This document shows, piece after piece, positions 45,408-51,830 of a DNA stretch of 64,000 nucleotides; within the stretch, counting starts at the first letter, position 1; each line of letters starts with the position of its first letter. The position numbers and the translations under genes are program-made. Source of the stretch: Qipengyuania pacifica (GTDB taxonomy: Bacteria > Pseudomonadota > Alphaproteobacteria > Sphingomonadales > Sphingomonadaceae); assembly GCF_019857205.1 (NCBI RefSeq), contig NZ_JAHWXO010000001.1:186001-250000 (forward strand). Direction: 5' to 3'. Below the pieces are notes generated by a model. It saw nothing but the letters and a program-made list of their open reading frames with translations. It did not search any database and was not told where the DNA came from.

Positions 45408-45436
45408 ACCAATCGGAACGATTTGGTCCGATTTGA
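45408..45436. promoter_or_regulatory. possible operator upstream of the suf regulator
   Basis: ACCAATCGGAACGATTTGGT (45408-45427) is an imperfect inverted repeat, and CGATTTG occurs twice (45419-45425 and 45430-45436) immediately before the regulator ATG. It is a plausible autoregulatory site for an Rrf2 protein. No ribosome site is visible, so the mRNA may be leaderless. Confidence 0.35.
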
Positions 45437-45437
45437 T

Positions 45438-45848
45438 ATGCGCCTTTCTAACCTTGCCGATTATGCCGTGGTCACGATGAGTGCCGCTGCCCGCCATTGC
45501 GGCGGTGCACGCACCAGTGCGGCAGAGCTGGCCGCCGAGACCGGATTGCCGGTTCCGACGGTGCAAAAGCTGGTAAGCAAGCTGTCTGCTGCAGGGCTAC
45601 TGCGATCCACGCGCGGTGCCGGCGGCGGGCTGCAACTGGCACGACCTGCCGCGGCGATTACCGTTGCCGACATCGTCGAGGCGGTCGAAGGACCAATCGC
45701 ACTGACCGCCTGCGTCGAAGGCACGGACTGTTCTGTCGAACATGACTGCACCGTCAAACCTCACTGGCCGGTCGTCAACGAAGCGTTGCGAGGCGCGCTG
45801 GCGGCGATTCCGCTGACCCAGCTGGCCCGCACAAGAGAGATTGCATGA
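45438..45848 (+). CDS. Rrf2-family iron-sulfur regulator of the suf operon
   Basis: A 136-residue winged-helix protein starting [50 protein letters not shown] is the DNA-binding helix-turn-helix. Cysteines at 92, 98 and 104 ([13 protein letters not shown]) have exactly the C-x5-C-x5-C spacing and numbering of the [2Fe-2S] ligands of IscR. It probably senses cluster supply and represses suf. Its stop overlaps the sufB ATG by 4 bp. Confidence 0.93.
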
Positions 45849-47326
45849 GCGAAAATATCGACATTCAGGATCGCGAAGCGAAGGAAGCTGCCGAAAAGGC
45901 CGCCGAATACGAACACGGCTGGTCGGCTGAAATCGACACCGAATTCGCCGAAAAGGGCCTTAGTGAAGACACCGTCCGGTTCATCAGCGCCAAGAAGGGC
46001 GAGCCGGAATGGATGCTCGACTGGCGGCTGAAAGCGTTTCGTCTGTGGCAGGAAATGGAAGAGCCGGACTGGGCCAAGCTCGGCTATCCGTCCATCGATT
46101 ACCAGGACGCCTATTATTACGCGGCACCGAAAAAGAAGGAAAAGCTCGCCTCGCTCGACGAGCTCGATCCGGACATCAAGGCGGTTTACGACAAGCTCGG
46201 CATACCTGTGGCGGAGCAGGAAGTGCTTGCCGGTGTCGAGGGCGCGCGCAAGGTCGCAGTCGATGCAGTATTCGACAGCGTGTCTGTCGCCACCACCTTC
46301 CGCGAAGAGCTGAAGAAGGCTGGCGTCATCTTCCTGTCGATCAGCGAAGCCATCAAGGAATATCCCGAACTGGTGAAAAAATGGCTGGGCAAGGTCGTGC
46401 CTCAGCATGACAATTTCTTCGCGACACTCAACTGTGCGGTCTTTTCGGACGGTACCTTCGTCTATGTGCCTGAAGGCGTGCGCTGCCCGATGGAACTCAG
46501 CACCTATTTCCGCATCAATGCCGAAAATACCGGCCAGTTCGAGCGCACGCTGATAATTGCCGAAAAGGGCAGCTACGTCAGCTATCTCGAAGGCTGCACC
46601 GCACCGATGCGCGACGAGAACCAGCTGCACGCTGCCGTGGTCGAACTGGTCGCGCTGGAAGATGCCGAGATCAAGTATTCGACCGTCCAGAACTGGTATC
46701 CCGGCAATGCGGAAGGCAAGGGCGGGATCTACAATTTCGTCACCAAGCGCGGCCTCTGCCAGGGCGCGCGGTCAAAGATCAGCTGGACACAGGTCGAGAC
46801 CGGCAGCGCAGTTACGTGGAAATATCCCAGCTGCGTTCTCAACGGTGAAGACAGCGTGGGCGAATTCTACTCGGTCGCGGTGACGAACAATTACCAACAG
46901 GCCGACACCGGCACCAAGATGATCCACAACGGCAAGGGTAGCCGCTCGACGATCATCTCCAAGGGCATTTCGGCGGGCAAGTCGAACAACACCTATCGCG
47001 GGTTGGTGCGCGTGGCGGCCAATGCCGACGGCGTGCGCAACCGCACCGAATGCGACAGCTTGCTGATCGGCGACCAGTGCGGCGCGCATACCGTGCCATA
47101 TATCGAGGTGAAGAACCCCGGCGCGCAGATCGAGCACGAGGCGACCACCAGCAAGATCAGCGACGACCAGCTGTTCTATGCAATGCAGCGCGGCCTGGAT
47201 GACGAGGAAGCTATGGCGCTGATCGTCAACGGTTTCGCCAAGGACGTGCTGAAAGAACTGCCGATGGAATTTGCAGTCGAAGCGCAAAAGCTGCTGGCGA
47301 TTTCTCTCGAAGGGAGCGTGGGGTGA
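45845..47326 (+). CDS. sufB: Fe-S cluster scaffold SufB
   Basis: A 493-residue scaffold subunit of the SufBCD complex on which clusters are built. [14 protein letters not shown] is near the N-terminus. The beta-helix core has [55 protein letters not shown], and [21 protein letters not shown] with the conserved Cys that accepts sulfur. Length is typical. It overlaps the upstream regulator and the next gene by 4 bp each. Confidence 0.97.
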
Positions 47327-47853
47327 CCGAACGCAAAACTCTCCAGCTTCGCGATCCCTCAGAGGTCAGCGACGAAGCGCCTGCGATCAAGAAGAAGGGT
47401 CGCGGTTGGGAAATCTCCGAAAAGCGGCTCGATGCGCTGCACGACCGCGCCCGCGAAATGCGCCGGCACTCCTCTCCGGCGCACAAGGCGCTGGCGGCCC
47501 GTTTCGCAAAAGAAGATTTCGGGAAATACAAGTTTTCGCGCCACACGGTGGTCGGCTCGGCGATCCTCGATTTCGTATCGCACCCACTTGGCCTCGCCAT
47601 AGCGATCGACGAGGAAGACCAGAACGATGCGCTGGCCAAGCGCCGCGACAAGAGCCTCGCCAGCGTCGGCATCGAAGTGCTGCGGATACCAGCAGCAACT
47701 ATCCTCGAGGACGTGGACGCTGCAATGCAGCCGATCTTCGGTGCCATGAATGCTCGCTACCGCGACAAGGAAACCGCGCGCCGCGCCCATCAATCGAAAT
47801 ACGGACCGACGCCCAAGCGCCCCCGCGCCCCGCGTCGAGACGACAGGAAGTAA
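47323..47853 (+). CDS. DUF559-like nuclease-fold protein embedded in the suf operon
   Basis: A 176-residue basic protein. A variable N-terminal 50 residues precede a DUF559/Vsr-like endonuclease fold: [47 protein letters not shown], then [22 protein letters not shown]. In typical DUF559 the core reads VIEVDGxxH; here the Glu position is Ala (AIAID) and the His position appears to be Gln, so catalysis may be lost. GTG start overlaps the sufB stop (GTGA) and sufC begins 1 nt after its stop, so it is tightly co-expressed. The role in cluster assembly is unknown. Confidence 0.8.
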
Positions 47854-47854
47854 C

Positions 47855-48598
47855 ATGCTGAAAATAGATAATCTTCACGCCGAAATCGACGGCAAGACCA
47901 TTCTCAACGGCCTTTCGCTGGAAGTGCCCGCGGGCGAAGTCCACGCGATCATGGGCCCCAATGGCGCGGGCAAATCGACGCTGGCGTATGTGCTGGGCGG
48001 ACGCCCGGGTTACGAGGTTACGCAGGGATCGGTCGAGTTCAACGGTATCGACCTGCTCGATATGGAGCCGCACGAACGCGCCGCAGCCGGCCTGTTTCTG
48101 GGCTTTCAGTACCCGGTCGAGATACCCGGCGTCTCCAACCTGCAATTCCTGCGCGAGGCGCTCAATTCGCAGCGCAAGGCGCGGGGCGAAGAGCCGCTTA
48201 CGGGTGGTGAATTCCTCAAGCTGGCCAAGGACAAGGCCGCGCTGCTCAAGCTCGATCCGGAAATGCTCAAGCGCCATGTGAATGTCGGCTTCTCGGGCGG
48301 CGAAAAGAAGCGCGCAGAGATGGTGCAGATGGGCATTCTCGATCCCAGGTTCGCAGTGCTGGACGAAACCGACAGCGGACTGGATATCGATGCGCTGCGC
48401 GTTGTCGGCGACGGCATCAACGCGATCATGCGCTCGCCGGAGAAAGCGGTGCTCCTGATCACCCACTATCAGCGACTGCTCGATTACGTGACACCGGCCA
48501 AGGTGCATATTCTCGCAGGCGGCCGGATCGTCACGACTGGCGGACCCGAGCTCGCGCAGAAGCTCGAGGCCGAGGGGTATGAGGCGGTCGCGGCGTGA
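47855..48598 (+). CDS. sufC: Suf complex ATPase SufC
   Basis: A 247-residue ABC-type ATPase that energises the SufBCD scaffold. Walker A GPNGAGKSTLAYVLGG is at about 34-49, the ABC signature FSGGEKKRAEM near 147 and Walker B AVLDETDSGLDIDALR near 168. It starts MLKIDNLHAEIDG at 47855 with AGGAAG upstream; the longer frame overlaps the previous gene. Its stop overlaps the next GTG (GTGA). Confidence 0.96.
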   Translation: MLKIDNLHAEIDGKTILNGLSLEVPAGEVHAIMGPNGAGKSTLAYVLGGRPGYEVTQGSVEFNGIDLLDMEPHERAAAGLFLGFQYPVEIPGVSNLQFLREALNSQRKARGEEPLTGGEFLKLAKDKAALLKLDPEMLKRHVNVGFSGGEKKRAEMVQMGILDPRFAVLDETDSGLDIDALRVVGDGINAIMRSPEKAVLLITHYQRLLDYVTPAKVHILAGGRIVTTGGPELAQKLEAEGYEAVAA

Positions 48599-48987
48599 AA
48601 AACATTGCAATCATACTGATGCTGATGGCCGGCGCCGCGCATGCACAGGATGCAGCGCCATCGGCCGACCCTGTCGATGACCAGATCGTCGTCATCGGCG
48701 AGAAGCTGAAGACATGGAAGGGCGGCGTCACGAAAGAGAATGGGCGGCTCATGTGTCGCACGAAGGAAAGCACGGGCGACAAGCAGCTCGACGCAATCCG
48801 GTGCGGGGGCATGCTGACCTGCATCAAGCCGCTGGAGCCGCGGATCGACAAGCTGATGTCTTCCGACGTTTCCCGCCTGGAAAAGCGCGATAAGTTCAAC
48901 GCGATGCTGGCCGGGACCAAGCCTTGTCTCGACGAATACGAAGACGCTGCCATCGCCCGACTGGCCGCGGAAAGGACCAAATCGTGA
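48595..48987 (+). CDS. small exported cysteine protein within the suf operon
   Basis: A 130-residue protein with a clear signal peptide (cleavage after AHA, residue 17). The mature chain opens with DDQIVVIGEKLKTW, which resembles the TonB-box region of TonB-dependent receptors (IVVTG), and has four Cys at 54, 70, 76 and 111 that could form two disulfides or bind metal. GTG start overlaps sufC and the stop overlaps sufD, both by 4 bp. The other suf products act in the cytoplasm, so an exported product is out of place. Function unknown. Confidence 0.78.
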   Translation: MKNIAIILMLMAGAAHAQDAAPSADPVDDQIVVIGEKLKTWKGGVTKENGRLMCRTKESTGDKQLDAIRCGGMLTCIKPLEPRIDKLMSSDVSRLEKRDKFNAMLAGTKPCLDEYEDAAIARLAAERTKS

Positions 48988-49736
48988 CGACTGCAACCCT
49001 TCCTACCCGCAAGGATGAAGCCTGGCGCTATTCCGCGGTCGAGAGGCTGCAGGGCGAAGCACTGGACGACTGGCGCGAGATCAAAGTCGAGGCTGGCGAT
49101 AGCTTTCGCGAGATACTGGTGATTGCCGACGGCGCCAGCAACCCGACGGAATTGCATCGTTGGCGCGTGACCGTCGGCGAAGGCGCGACGTGTGAACTGT
49201 TCGCCGTGCTTGCCTCGGCCGAATACGCCCGCCTCGAAATCGAGGTGACCTTGAACAAGGGCGCGCATTTCGAATTCGGCGGGATTACGGTTGGCGGGCG
49301 CGACACGGTGCGCGAATTCGTCACGCGTACCATCCATGCCCAGGCCGAAGCGACCAGCAACCAGACCGTGCGCAGTGTGCACTGGGGGCATGGCACCGGG
49401 AATTTCCTTGGCAATATCGATGTGGTTCGCGATGCGCAGAAGACCGACGCAGCGCAGGATTTCAAAGGCTTGCTGCTGGAAAAGGGCGCCAGCGTGAATG
49501 CCGTGCCGCAGCTCGAGATCTTTGCCGACGACGTGAAATGCGCGCATGGCGCCAGCGTCGGCCAGCTCGATGAAACGGCCCGCTTCTATATGGCGGCGCG
49601 GGGGCTTTCGCCCGATGTGGCTCGCCGTCTGCTGGTGCAGGCCTTTCTTGGCGATGCGCTGGTGTCGCTGGCGGATGAGGCGAAGCGCGAGGAGTTGATG
49701 AAAGTCGCGCTCGACAAGGTGGACAAGTACCTGTGA
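48984..49736 (+). CDS. sufD: Fe-S cluster assembly protein SufD
   Basis: A 250-residue SufD, shorter than the roughly 420-residue E. coli form, lacking much of the N-terminal helical part. Core beta-helix motifs include GAHFEFGGITVGGRDTVREFVTR and VPQLEIFADDVKCAHGASVGQLDETARFYMAARGLSPDVARRLLVQAFLG. The GTG at 48984 overlaps the previous stop (GTGA). It pairs with SufB and SufC. A short N-terminus is common in sphingomonad SufD. Confidence 0.93.
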   Translation: MTTATLPTRKDEAWRYSAVERLQGEALDDWREIKVEAGDSFREILVIADGASNPTELHRWRVTVGEGATCELFAVLASAEYARLEIEVTLNKGAHFEFGGITVGGRDTVREFVTRTIHAQAEATSNQTVRSVHWGHGTGNFLGNIDVVRDAQKTDAAQDFKGLLLEKGASVNAVPQLEIFADDVKCAHGASVGQLDETARFYMAARGLSPDVARRLLVQAFLGDALVSLADEAKREELMKVALDKVDKYL

Positions 49737-50950
49737 GCGATACAGCCGTCCTTTCCCGCAAGGCCGATTTCCCGGGACTTGTCACGGCCGATGGCGAGCC
49801 TTGGCACTATCTCGATACAGCGGCATCCGCGCAGAAGCCGCAGGCGGTGGTTGATGCGATGAGCCGCGCGCTCGGCGTTGACTATGCCACGGTACATCGC
49901 GGCGTGTACGGGCGCAGCGCGCAGATGACGCTCGGCTACGAATCCGCCCGGCGGCGGGTTGCGGAGTTCATCGGCGCGAAAAGCGAGAACGAAGTGGTTT
50001 TCGTGCGCGGCGCGACAGAAGCGATCAACCTGGTCGCTGCAAGCTGGGGCATGGTGAATATCGGCGAGGGCGACCGGATCGTGTTGTCCACGCTCGAGCA
50101 TCATTCCAACATCGTACCCTGGCAGATGGTGGCGGAGCGTACGGGAGCGCAGATCGATGTCTGTCCGCTGACGGAAGACGGCCAGATCGACCTCGGTGCG
50201 CTCGAAGCGATCCTCACGCCGCGAACCAAGCTGGTTTCGCTGGCGCATGTTTCCAACGTCCTTGGCAGCGTGCTCGATGCGCGGGCCGCGGCGGATCTGG
50301 TGCATTCGGTCGGTGCGAAGCTGATGCTGGATGGATGCCAGGCGGCGCCGCGCATGACGCTCGACATGGCCGCAATCGATTGTGATTTCTACGCTTTTTC
50401 CGGACACAAGATCTACGGGCCCACCGGAATCGGCGTGCTGTGGGCACGCGAAGAGATCCTCGATGGCATGCCCCCGTGGCAGGGCGGCGGGGCGATGATC
50501 GACCGCGTTACCTTCGAAAAGACCACTTACGCCCCGCCTCCGCAGCGGTTCGAGGCCGGCACGCCGATGATCACGGAAGCGATCGCGCTGCATGCGGCGA
50601 TCGAATACATCGATGATATGGGTGTCGATCAAGCGTATGATCACGAGCGTCAGCTCGCCCGAACACTGCGTGAAGCACTGTCTGCACACAATTCGATCCG
50701 TCTGTTCGGGCCGGAAGAGAGCGCCGGCATCGTCAGCTTTGCGATGGAGGGGGTTCACCCGCACGATCTGGGCACCATATTGGACGAAGAACATGTCGCG
50801 ATCCGGGCTGGACATCACTGTGCGCAGCCGCTGATGGACCATCTCGGCGTCCCCGCCACCGCCCGCGCAAGCTTCGGGCTGTATTCCGACGAAAGCGACA
50901 TTGCTGCCCTGCTGCGCGGCATCGAACGTACCCAGAGGATCTTCGGATGA
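49733..50950 (+). CDS. sufS: cysteine desulfurase SufS
   Basis: A 405-residue PLP enzyme that releases sulfur from cysteine for cluster assembly. The PLP lysine is K226 in YAFSGHKIYGPTG and the persulfide cysteine is C363 in RAGHHCAQPLM, both at the positions known for E. coli SufS (226 and about 364). Other conserved blocks are RGATEAINLVA and EHHSNIVPW. No sufE gene is present in this operon. GTG start overlaps sufD by 4 bp. Confidence 0.96.
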   Translation: MSDTAVLSRKADFPGLVTADGEPWHYLDTAASAQKPQAVVDAMSRALGVDYATVHRGVYGRSAQMTLGYESARRRVAEFIGAKSENEVVFVRGATEAINLVAASWGMVNIGEGDRIVLSTLEHHSNIVPWQMVAERTGAQIDVCPLTEDGQIDLGALEAILTPRTKLVSLAHVSNVLGSVLDARAAADLVHSVGAKLMLDGCQAAPRMTLDMAAIDCDFYAFSGHKIYGPTGIGVLWAREEILDGMPPWQGGGAMIDRVTFEKTTYAPPPQRFEAGTPMITEAIALHAAIEYIDDMGVDQAYDHERQLARTLREALSAHNSIRLFGPEESAGIVSFAMEGVHPHDLGTILDEEHVAIRAGHHCAQPLMDHLGVPATARASFGLYSDESDIAALLRGIERTQRIFG

Positions 50951-51468
50951 GCGAAGAAACGAATACCGATACTGATTTCATCGCGGCGCCCCTGCCGGGT
51001 GATGTGGCGCCTGCCGACAGTTCAGGCGGCAAGCCCCCGCGTGCGCGGGTGGAGGATGCCGTCGATACGGAAGAATCCCCGCGCGAGACGATGGAGCGCA
51101 AGCGCGATTATCTGGAAGGGTTCCTGCAGAAGAAGCCGGAGAACGTGCCCGCAGGTGCGCCCGGAGGCGATCTGTACGAGGCCGTGATCTCCGCGCTCAA
51201 GGAAATCTACGATCCGGAAATCCCGGTGAACATCTACGATCTGGGGCTGATCTACGGCGTGGAGGTCGATGACGAAAGCGACGTGACCGTCACCATGACG
51301 CTGACCACGCCGCACTGCCCGGTGGCCGAAACCATGCCGGGCGAAGTTGAACTGCGCGCTGCCAGCGTGCCGGGTGTCCGCGATGCCGAAGTCAATCTGG
51401 TCTGGGATCCGCCCTGGGGCCCGGACAAGATGACCGACGAGGCGCGGCTGGAGTTAGGAATGCTATGA
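50947..51468 (+). CDS. sufT: SUF-system DUF59 protein (SufT/MIP18-like)
   Basis: A 173-residue protein. A disordered charged N-terminal 70 residues precede a DUF59 domain: AVISALKEIYDPEIPVNIYDLGLIYGVEV, then LTTPHCPVAETMPGEV with the conserved Cys and VNLVWDPPWGPDKMT. DUF59 proteins help mature or deliver Fe-S clusters and often occur in suf operons. It overlaps sufS and sufA by 4 bp. Confidence 0.92.
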   Translation: MSEETNTDTDFIAAPLPGDVAPADSSGGKPPRARVEDAVDTEESPRETMERKRDYLEGFLQKKPENVPAGAPGGDLYEAVISALKEIYDPEIPVNIYDLGLIYGVEVDDESDVTVTMTLTTPHCPVAETMPGEVELRAASVPGVRDAEVNLVWDPPWGPDKMTDEARLELGML

Positions 51469-51830
51469 GCGATACCGAAACGAAAACCCGCTCCGCACCG
51501 AAGGCCGCCGTGATCCTGACCGCCGCCGCCGAGCAGCGCGTTGCCGATCTGATGGCCAAGGCTCCCGAAGATGCGATCGGCGTGAAGCTGTCGACCCCGC
51601 GCCGCGGCTGCTCGGGTCTGGCCTATTCGGTCGACTACGTCAGCGAGGAAACCAAATTCGACGAGAAGATCGAGACCCCGGGCGGTGTGTTCTACATCGA
51701 CGGCGCCAGCGTCCTCTATCTGATCGGGAGCACGATGGACTGGGTGGAAGACGATTTCACCGCCGGCTTCGTGTTCGAAAATCCCAATGCCAAGGGCGCT
51801 TGCGGCTGCGGCGAGAGCTTCATGGTCTGA
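51465..51830 (+). CDS. sufA: A-type iron-sulfur carrier SufA
   Basis: A 121-residue HesB/IscA protein with cluster ligands C49 (RRGCSGL), C113 and C115 (GACGCGESF). It carries clusters from the SufBCD scaffold to apo-proteins. It is the last gene of the suf operon (stop at 51828-51830), after which 68 bp separate it from the convergent lipoprotein gene. It is distinct from the ErpA-like protein at 24.7 kb, which differs mainly in its N-terminus. Confidence 0.93.
   Translation: MSDTETKTRSAPKAAVILTAAAEQRVADLMAKAPEDAIGVKLSTPRRGCSGLAYSVDYVSEETKFDEKIETPGGVFYIDGASVLYLIGSTMDWVEDDFTAGFVFENPNAKGACGCGESFMV

Follow-up and report, generated by a model that had tools for sequence, protein, structure and literature searches.

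Our preferred reading, held with moderate confidence, is that the DUF559-family protein encoded between sufB and sufC in Qipengyuania pacifica is a domesticated, dead derivative of a palindrome-flanked DUF559 cassette, which became established downstream of sufB in an ancestor belonging to the same GTDB family and would now have a nucleic-acid-binding role on suf. Judged from its sequence and those of its relatives, the protein is very likely domesticated and non-cleaving. The more specific role of a nucleic-acid-binding regulator of suf expression is drawn by analogy and is offered tentatively, as a possibility.

The gene (encoding 176 residues, GTG start, TAA stop) occupies positions 47323-47853 of the window, by which is meant the whole stretch of 64,000 nucleotides that was analysed, and lies, like all features of the window given below, on the forward strand. 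Its start codon overlaps the TGA stop of sufB (47324-47326) in the sequence GTGA (47323-47326), and the ATG of sufC at 47855 is found 1 nt past its stop codon. The cluster begins with an Rrf2-family regulator (45423-45848; Pfam) and, as assigned from family models, continues with sufB (45845-47326), the DUF559 gene and sufC (47855-48598), followed by a gene for a small secreted-looking protein with four Cys (48595-48987), sufD (48984-49736, with its start placed by inference at the GTG of a further GTGA overlap, whereas the program-called open reading frame begins at 48924), sufS (49733-50950), a gene for a SUF-associated DUF59 protein (50947-51468; TIGR02945) and one for a SufA/IscA-type carrier (51465-51830). 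The remaining junctions of this row are 4-nt overlaps, including those on both sides of the four-Cys open reading frame, for which no Pfam or NCBIfam match was found and relatives of which occupy the same place in some related loci (L013, L014, L015, L022, L023, L028 and L031). DUF559 (PF04480) was matched by residues 39-141 of the window protein (47437-47745) with 49.1 bits against a gathering cut-off of 20.6, and only DUF559 models, with none of the Suf families, were matched in Pfam and NCBIfam at E values up to 0.01.

The position of the gene was conserved among relatives. It was present in all 37 same-genus genomes sampled, the window genome counted (in one, as two pieces at contig ends), and the order sufB-gene-sufC was noted in 30/30 same-genus loci fetched, the window locus among them; absence from this place in close relatives, which the earlier note had named as evidence against its reading, was not encountered. 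The same gene order, proposed there as a check, held more widely. In the Erythrobacter group, both sufB and sufC flanked the gene at 78 of 80 named loci (the best 80 of 150 confirmed relatives in a scan of named genomes, from Qipengyuania, Erythrobacter, Tsuneonella, Croceicoccus, Aurantiacibacter, Pelagerythrobacter and other genera), the other two being cut off by the end of a contig so that a single neighbour is seen, and 36 of 40 diverged matches from the same GTDB family (26-52% identical, picked by hand from rows of approximately 203 to 72 bits) lay between these genes, nine of the 36 being canonical cassettes. When 246 genomes from the order were searched, only the family of the window genome gave matches of at least 160 bits, and values in other families were about 94 bits or less. 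Thirty genomes were selected for the lack of a close relative in earlier searches, and in these no DUF559 was detected between sufB and sufC, which indicates that SUF can work without the gene; the sufB-sufC interval in these genomes (loci L320-L349) nevertheless ranged from 2 to 838 bases, being 9-65 bases in the five that belong to other families. Zymomonas mobilis also belongs to the order. Its SUF genes are described as sufBCDSTAE (PMC11218510, PMC6372839), likewise without a DUF559 gene. The site also hosts other passengers in some relatives, and in one locus (L218) a partial tandem duplicate of the domesticated gene, the N-terminal part of which runs into an unrelated frame, lies beside the full one. 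Direct overlap with sufB is one arrangement among several, since tens to several hundred bases separate sufB, the DUF559 gene and sufC in many relatives. The DUF559 gene of suf is thus a derived yet stable feature of the operon.

A model of the protein predicted by AlphaFold from 67 sequences (pLDDT 83.1, pTM 0.69) placed it among Vsr-like folds. The top-ranking Foldseek match was the homing endonuclease I-Bth0305I (3r3p, E 1e-4); NGO0050 (3hrl) and mitoribosomal chains ranked close to it, and Vsr stood at rank 18. Alignment with VIA-align gave Z scores of 12.7 for 3hrl, 11.2 for 3r3p (rmsd 1.8 over 92 residues), 9.5 for a Toxoplasma mitoribosomal chain, 9.0 for Vsr (1cw0, rmsd 2.3 over 97) and 8.8 for the RAP module of FASTKD4 (9gek, rmsd 3.7 over 105), the last being little higher than values often obtained between unrelated folds. 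FASTKD4 was not among the best 50 Foldseek matches, and a search by sequence of solved structures returned one row, at chance level. All 67 aligned members matched DUF559 at E values up to 1, and RAP was not found among the 17 Pfam families matched by them at this level, where weak matches may be filtered. The fold is shared with I-Bth0305I, which we take to belong to the EDxHD family, and with Vsr (1cw0, 1vsr) over approximately residues 46-147, but most of the catalytic set is missing from the window protein, which does not present the Glu-Asp-His combination of active Vsr and EDxHD enzymes. These results agree with the earlier note, which had described the gene as translationally tied to sufB, 1 nt from sufC and of a DUF559 nuclease fold, and had suggested comparison of a predicted structure with Vsr. 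Two described proteins may be compared with the window protein. Caulobacter VsrA (CCNA_02930), described as a putative endonuclease of Vsr type belonging to the DNA damage response (PMC12907096), likewise has a DUF559 domain above the Pfam cut-off and a Vsr-like fold, whereas the window protein is without the Glu and His and sits in the suf operon. FASTKD4, a RAP-domain protein the Vsr-like fold of which is reported to bind RNA without cleavage (PMC11879112), is comparable in fold at the Z score given above but is eukaryotic and carries FAST domains, while the window protein has no RAP row in Pfam.

The proposed course of events is that a palindrome-flanked DUF559 cassette settled behind sufB, that loss of the catalytic set left a protein that would no longer cut, and that this protein would still bind nucleic acid through a conserved, basic N-terminal part (KKKGRGW, R35, R44 and R48) and a basic tail. 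Since its synthesis goes along with that of SufB and SufC, it could then act on suf mRNA or on the suf region, and binding without cleavage by a dead Vsr-like fold has a precedent in FASTKD4. The earlier note had proposed a role in cluster assembly or as an RNA-binding regulator; for the latter, this precedent and the basic N-terminal part are hints. The predicted pI of the window protein is 10.0, and residues 21-50 include 10 Lys or Arg as opposed to 5 Asp or Glu. The main alternative, which we consider somewhat unlikely, is that the protein binds SufB, SufC or SufBCD, perhaps by its N-terminal motif, and tunes cluster assembly without contact to nucleic acid. The best hint in this direction is the motif itself, roughly MTxRKxLxL at residues 1-9 (47323-47349), which by pattern match, with script-assigned start codons, is present in 79 of 80 relatives from named loci and 22 of 27 diverged SUF relatives but in 0 of 13 canonical DUF559 proteins. 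The protein is also encoded beside SufB and SufC in the loci examined, and residues 1-4 and 7-20 fall below a pLDDT of 50, as flexible binding motifs often do. Weighing against a SUF partner are the strongly basic character of the protein, the several nucleic-acid binders among its fold neighbours and the operation of SUF in relatives that are without the gene.

Selection on the gene was compared with that on its neighbours over tblastn-matched stretches, using pairs with a sufC dS of 0.1-1.0; as these pairs share species they are not independent. The median dN/dS was 0.336 for the DUF559 gene (2195 pairs), 0.133 for sufB, 0.160 for sufC, 0.313 for sufD (1749 pairs) and 0.584 for the fast-evolving gene of the four-Cys protein (119 pairs). 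Constraint on the DUF559 gene is thus as loose as that on sufD, its ratio lying above those of sufB and sufC and below that of the four-Cys gene. By region, the ratio was lowest at residues 1-38 (0.275), slightly higher in the domain (0.307) and highest in the tail (0.537). On this sequence evidence the gene is under purifying selection, with a number of N-terminal residues invariant in the group of the window protein. Conservation of amino acids at a dN/dS of 0.34, together with these invariant residues, disfavors the notion that the gene is an idle leftover of a selfish cassette, retained only as an open frame that couples translation of sufB to that of sufC. The overlap with sufB and the single base before sufC in the window, the 4-nt overlaps throughout the operon and the presence of other passengers at the same site are in keeping with such a leftover, but the gene is also retained in many relatives where it is left uncoupled by intervals ranging from tens to hundreds of bases, and we regard this explanation as very improbable.

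The active site was compared in the columns TxxE, ADF and VExDGxxH of a MAFFT alignment of 206 distinct domain sequences. One locus, L199, was first counted as SUF-linked from an ABC ATPase resembling SufC but contains no sufB and was moved, so that 157 SUF-linked and 49 non-SUF domains were compared (158 domains having been SUF-flagged before). In a gap-free alignment, canonical VEVDGDTH corresponds to IAIDEEDQ of the window protein, such that the catalytic Glu of VExDG is replaced by Ala94 (47602-47604) and the catalytic His of DGxxH by Gln100 (47620-47622), the MAFFT columns placing the equivalent of this His one residue earlier. The Ala and Gln substitutions are those pointed out in the earlier note; replacement of the helix Glu of TxxE by His54 (47482-47484) is a further change that it did not mention. 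Asp83 (47569-47571), an acid of the catalytic site, and Asp96 are retained; the positions are from alignment and the codons were read from the DNA.

The set E-D-E-D-G-H was intact in 47 of 49 non-SUF domains, a share that may be overstated since this sample leans to high scorers (the best 30 of one search and loci picked by hand) and the window genome itself has interrupted or weak copies. The two exceptions were one with N for D and one degenerate copy in the window genome. Apart from the suf gene, three DUF559 matches were noted in that genome (G000:C1:588574-588889, G000:C23:380989-381246 and G000:C23:29470-29691), one of which consists of two pieces with an internal stop and two of which are weak (34-35 bits). 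On the SUF side the set was intact in only 13 of 157 domains, namely 12 palindrome-flanked cassettes and L165. None of the 144 degenerate domains has a His within ten residues from the Glu position, as opposed to a His exactly six residues on in 47 of 48 non-SUF rows (labels before L199 was moved). Both Glu and His are missing in 125/144 and Glu is kept in 19/144. In the SUF-linked domains, residues including A, M, D, S, V, I and L stand in the Glu column and residues including Q, A, E and D in the His column, and the variety in the former suggests that the site is dead and has not been replaced by a new one. In contrast, Asp83 and R107-R108-D109 are invariant in the group of the window protein, which, with the Glu of those 19 domains, makes some altered chemistry conceivable; a nuclease with an active site rebuilt from His54, Asp83, Asp96 and R107-R108-D109 is nonetheless the least probable explanation and hardly to be expected, for although Asp83 is kept in 157, the Asp of RRD in 153 and His54 in 119 of the 158 SUF-flagged domains, the residue variety at the Glu and His positions is atypical of a working metal site. 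The idea of a repurposed, inactive nuclease in the earlier note thus gains support from the degeneration of 144 of 157 SUF-linked domains, their grouping in one clade, purifying selection and a Vsr/I-Bth0305I fold, all at the level of sequence and predicted structure.

Canonical DUF559 genes in loci L186-L281 were observed between matching GC-rich palindromes, most clearly in the family of the window genome and partly in wider samples of Proteobacteria. Among 54 rows of canonical genes from the family, including a few duplicates and domesticated rows, a strict palindrome was present on both sides in 31, on the right only in 11, on the left only in 5 and on neither side in 7, compared with 7 of 722 control windows from the same loci. 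With duplicates removed, inverted matches between flanks scored at least 14 in 42/49 family, 16/27 class and 7/16 phylum elements; the background was 36 of 362 cross-element pairs, in which the family, class and phylum samples are mixed, and 0 of 177 control places. Direct-orientation matches reached the same score in 24/49, 11/27 and 10/16 elements, respectively. As direct matches outnumber inverted ones in the phylum sample (10 to 7), inverted orientation is clear for the family and less so beyond it. The match of left and right flanks within elements indicates that an element as a rule has a matching pair to itself, which is what one would expect of a mobile unit. Translation of the palindrome is seen in many cassettes, e.g., as N-terminal PPLQGRGRGWG and C-terminal PHPNPSPEGEGL. 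These features suggest that canonical DUF559 genes are small mobile cassettes with palindromic ends. REP/REPIN elements with RAYT transposases are small palindromes that occur in pairs with a gene for the mobilizing enzyme. The DUF559 cassettes are similar in combining small paired palindromes with the gene of a putative mobilizing enzyme but differ in that this enzyme is a DUF559 nuclease, RAYT being a transposase of another kind.

Intact cassettes were found at the very place occupied by the window gene, an aspect of origin on which the earlier note, silent about palindrome-flanked cassettes, has to be extended. They lie directly behind sufB in L162 (where another stretch of approximately 580 bases precedes the cassette), L164, L167, L169, L170, L172, L177, L178 and L179, and between sufB and a domesticated gene that is still present in L098, L216 and L217, the contig of the last beginning at the sufB end. 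All 12 of these sufB-linked cassettes have matching inverted flanks (score 14-26), with a strict palindrome on both sides in 8. The window gene has no strict palindrome on the left or the right and an inverted flank score of 8, equal to background; the score for L165, with its intact site, is 9, which is no match.

In a tree of 102 of the 206 sequences (106 columns; 47 of 99 inner branches left open), 42 SUF rows, consisting of 41 degenerate domains and L165, fell on one side of a branch with SH-aLRT support of 98. The cassette type stands next to this SUF clade, but this step is weak, with a support of 85 on a branch of 0.0013 and a midpoint root; L199, still labeled SUF-linked, falls among the non-SUF rows. 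The degenerate SUF proteins thus form one clade, apparently nearest to the cassettes. A trace of the cassette may also persist at the N-terminus. Residues 18-38 of the window protein (47374-47436) align without gaps to the palindrome-encoded PPLQGRGRGWGLS of canonical cassettes, with the conserved GRGW of the SUF proteins opposite the GRGRGWG of the cassette, and in the Erythrobacter group the corresponding GRGW stretch can be laid against TPPLQGRGRGWGLS with no gap, at an equal distance from the domain. From its position and letters we infer that this stretch is a fossil of the left end of the cassette; some diverged SUF proteins retain only W or RGW of it, or nothing.

Second sufB ends were also noted downstream of sufB. 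In a protein-level test, a second LEGSVG-stop copy was present between sufB and sufC in 12 of 151 segments and in 0 on the reverse strand, and triplet shuffles gave an expectation of 0.05. On re-running the test with 182 segments, such a copy appeared in 11; one further locus, L134, was positive in both DNA and protein tests but was not among these 11. The working sufB end carries a TCN Ser codon in 10 of the 11 and the downstream copy an AGY codon in 10 of the 11, TCN being the minority type overall (found in 37 of the 180 loci that have a Ser codon). In L098 (4900-5470), for example, a working SufB end with a TCN Ser is followed past the insertion by an AGY-coded copy of the end. A TCN end accompanied a canonical cassette in 8 of 11 loci with a Ser codon, compared with 29 of 169 other loci (p 1.7e-4, a value that is too small since related genomes were counted as independent). 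The canonical DUF559 was not flagged in 7 of the 11 segments with a second sufB end, indicating that the cassette is not the sole insertion behind sufB. An inserted unit that brought its own sufB end and displaced the old one would give a recoded end with a downstream copy; import of the sufB end of a relative, joined at short homology, would give the same pattern. The window has no second copy of the sufB end and a plain AGC end. An ungapped 24-nt DNA test for second ends showed no enrichment in 150 segments (bulk 12-14 matches, against 13-15 for control 24-mers from inside sufB), except in the far tail, where at least 18 matches were found in 4 of 150 segments as opposed to 1 of 600 controls. 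A tie between recoding and insertion length was likewise not seen among loci with a domesticated gene, TCN-coded ends showing no association with a gap of more than 60 bases behind sufB (13/85 as against 4/34, Fisher p 0.78).

Taken jointly, these observations may be read as follows, in a scheme that is quite possible but that we would not call probable. Canonical DUF559 would be the enzyme of an undescribed and widespread class of small mobile cassettes, each with a Vsr/homing-type nuclease and two palindromes that are usually inverted, the stems of which match within and differ between elements. The 3' end of sufB would be one favored target, and the window gene would be a host-tamed cassette, nuclease-dead, with a palindrome fossil as its N-terminus and fixed in the operon. 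A second SufB C-terminus downstream and a working end recoded with the other type of Ser codon are what a cassette supplying a cleavage-proof gene end would be expected to leave. In the mostly open-access literature searched, no published account of DUF559 in suf or of palindromes around DUF559 was recognized. The general kinds of event, a dead nuclease fold turned binder and a domesticated selfish nuclease, are already known.

What the suf operons of this family offer is a step-by-step case of a probably selfish nuclease entering a housekeeping operon, in which intact, half-degenerate and dead versions are found at one locus in living relatives. The scattered occurrence of DUF559 genes would be accounted for if, as suggested here, they are palindrome-ended mobile cassettes. 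For the bacteria that carry it, the domesticated gene is a candidate accessory factor of SUF iron-sulfur assembly, open to experimental test, throughout a whole bacterial group.
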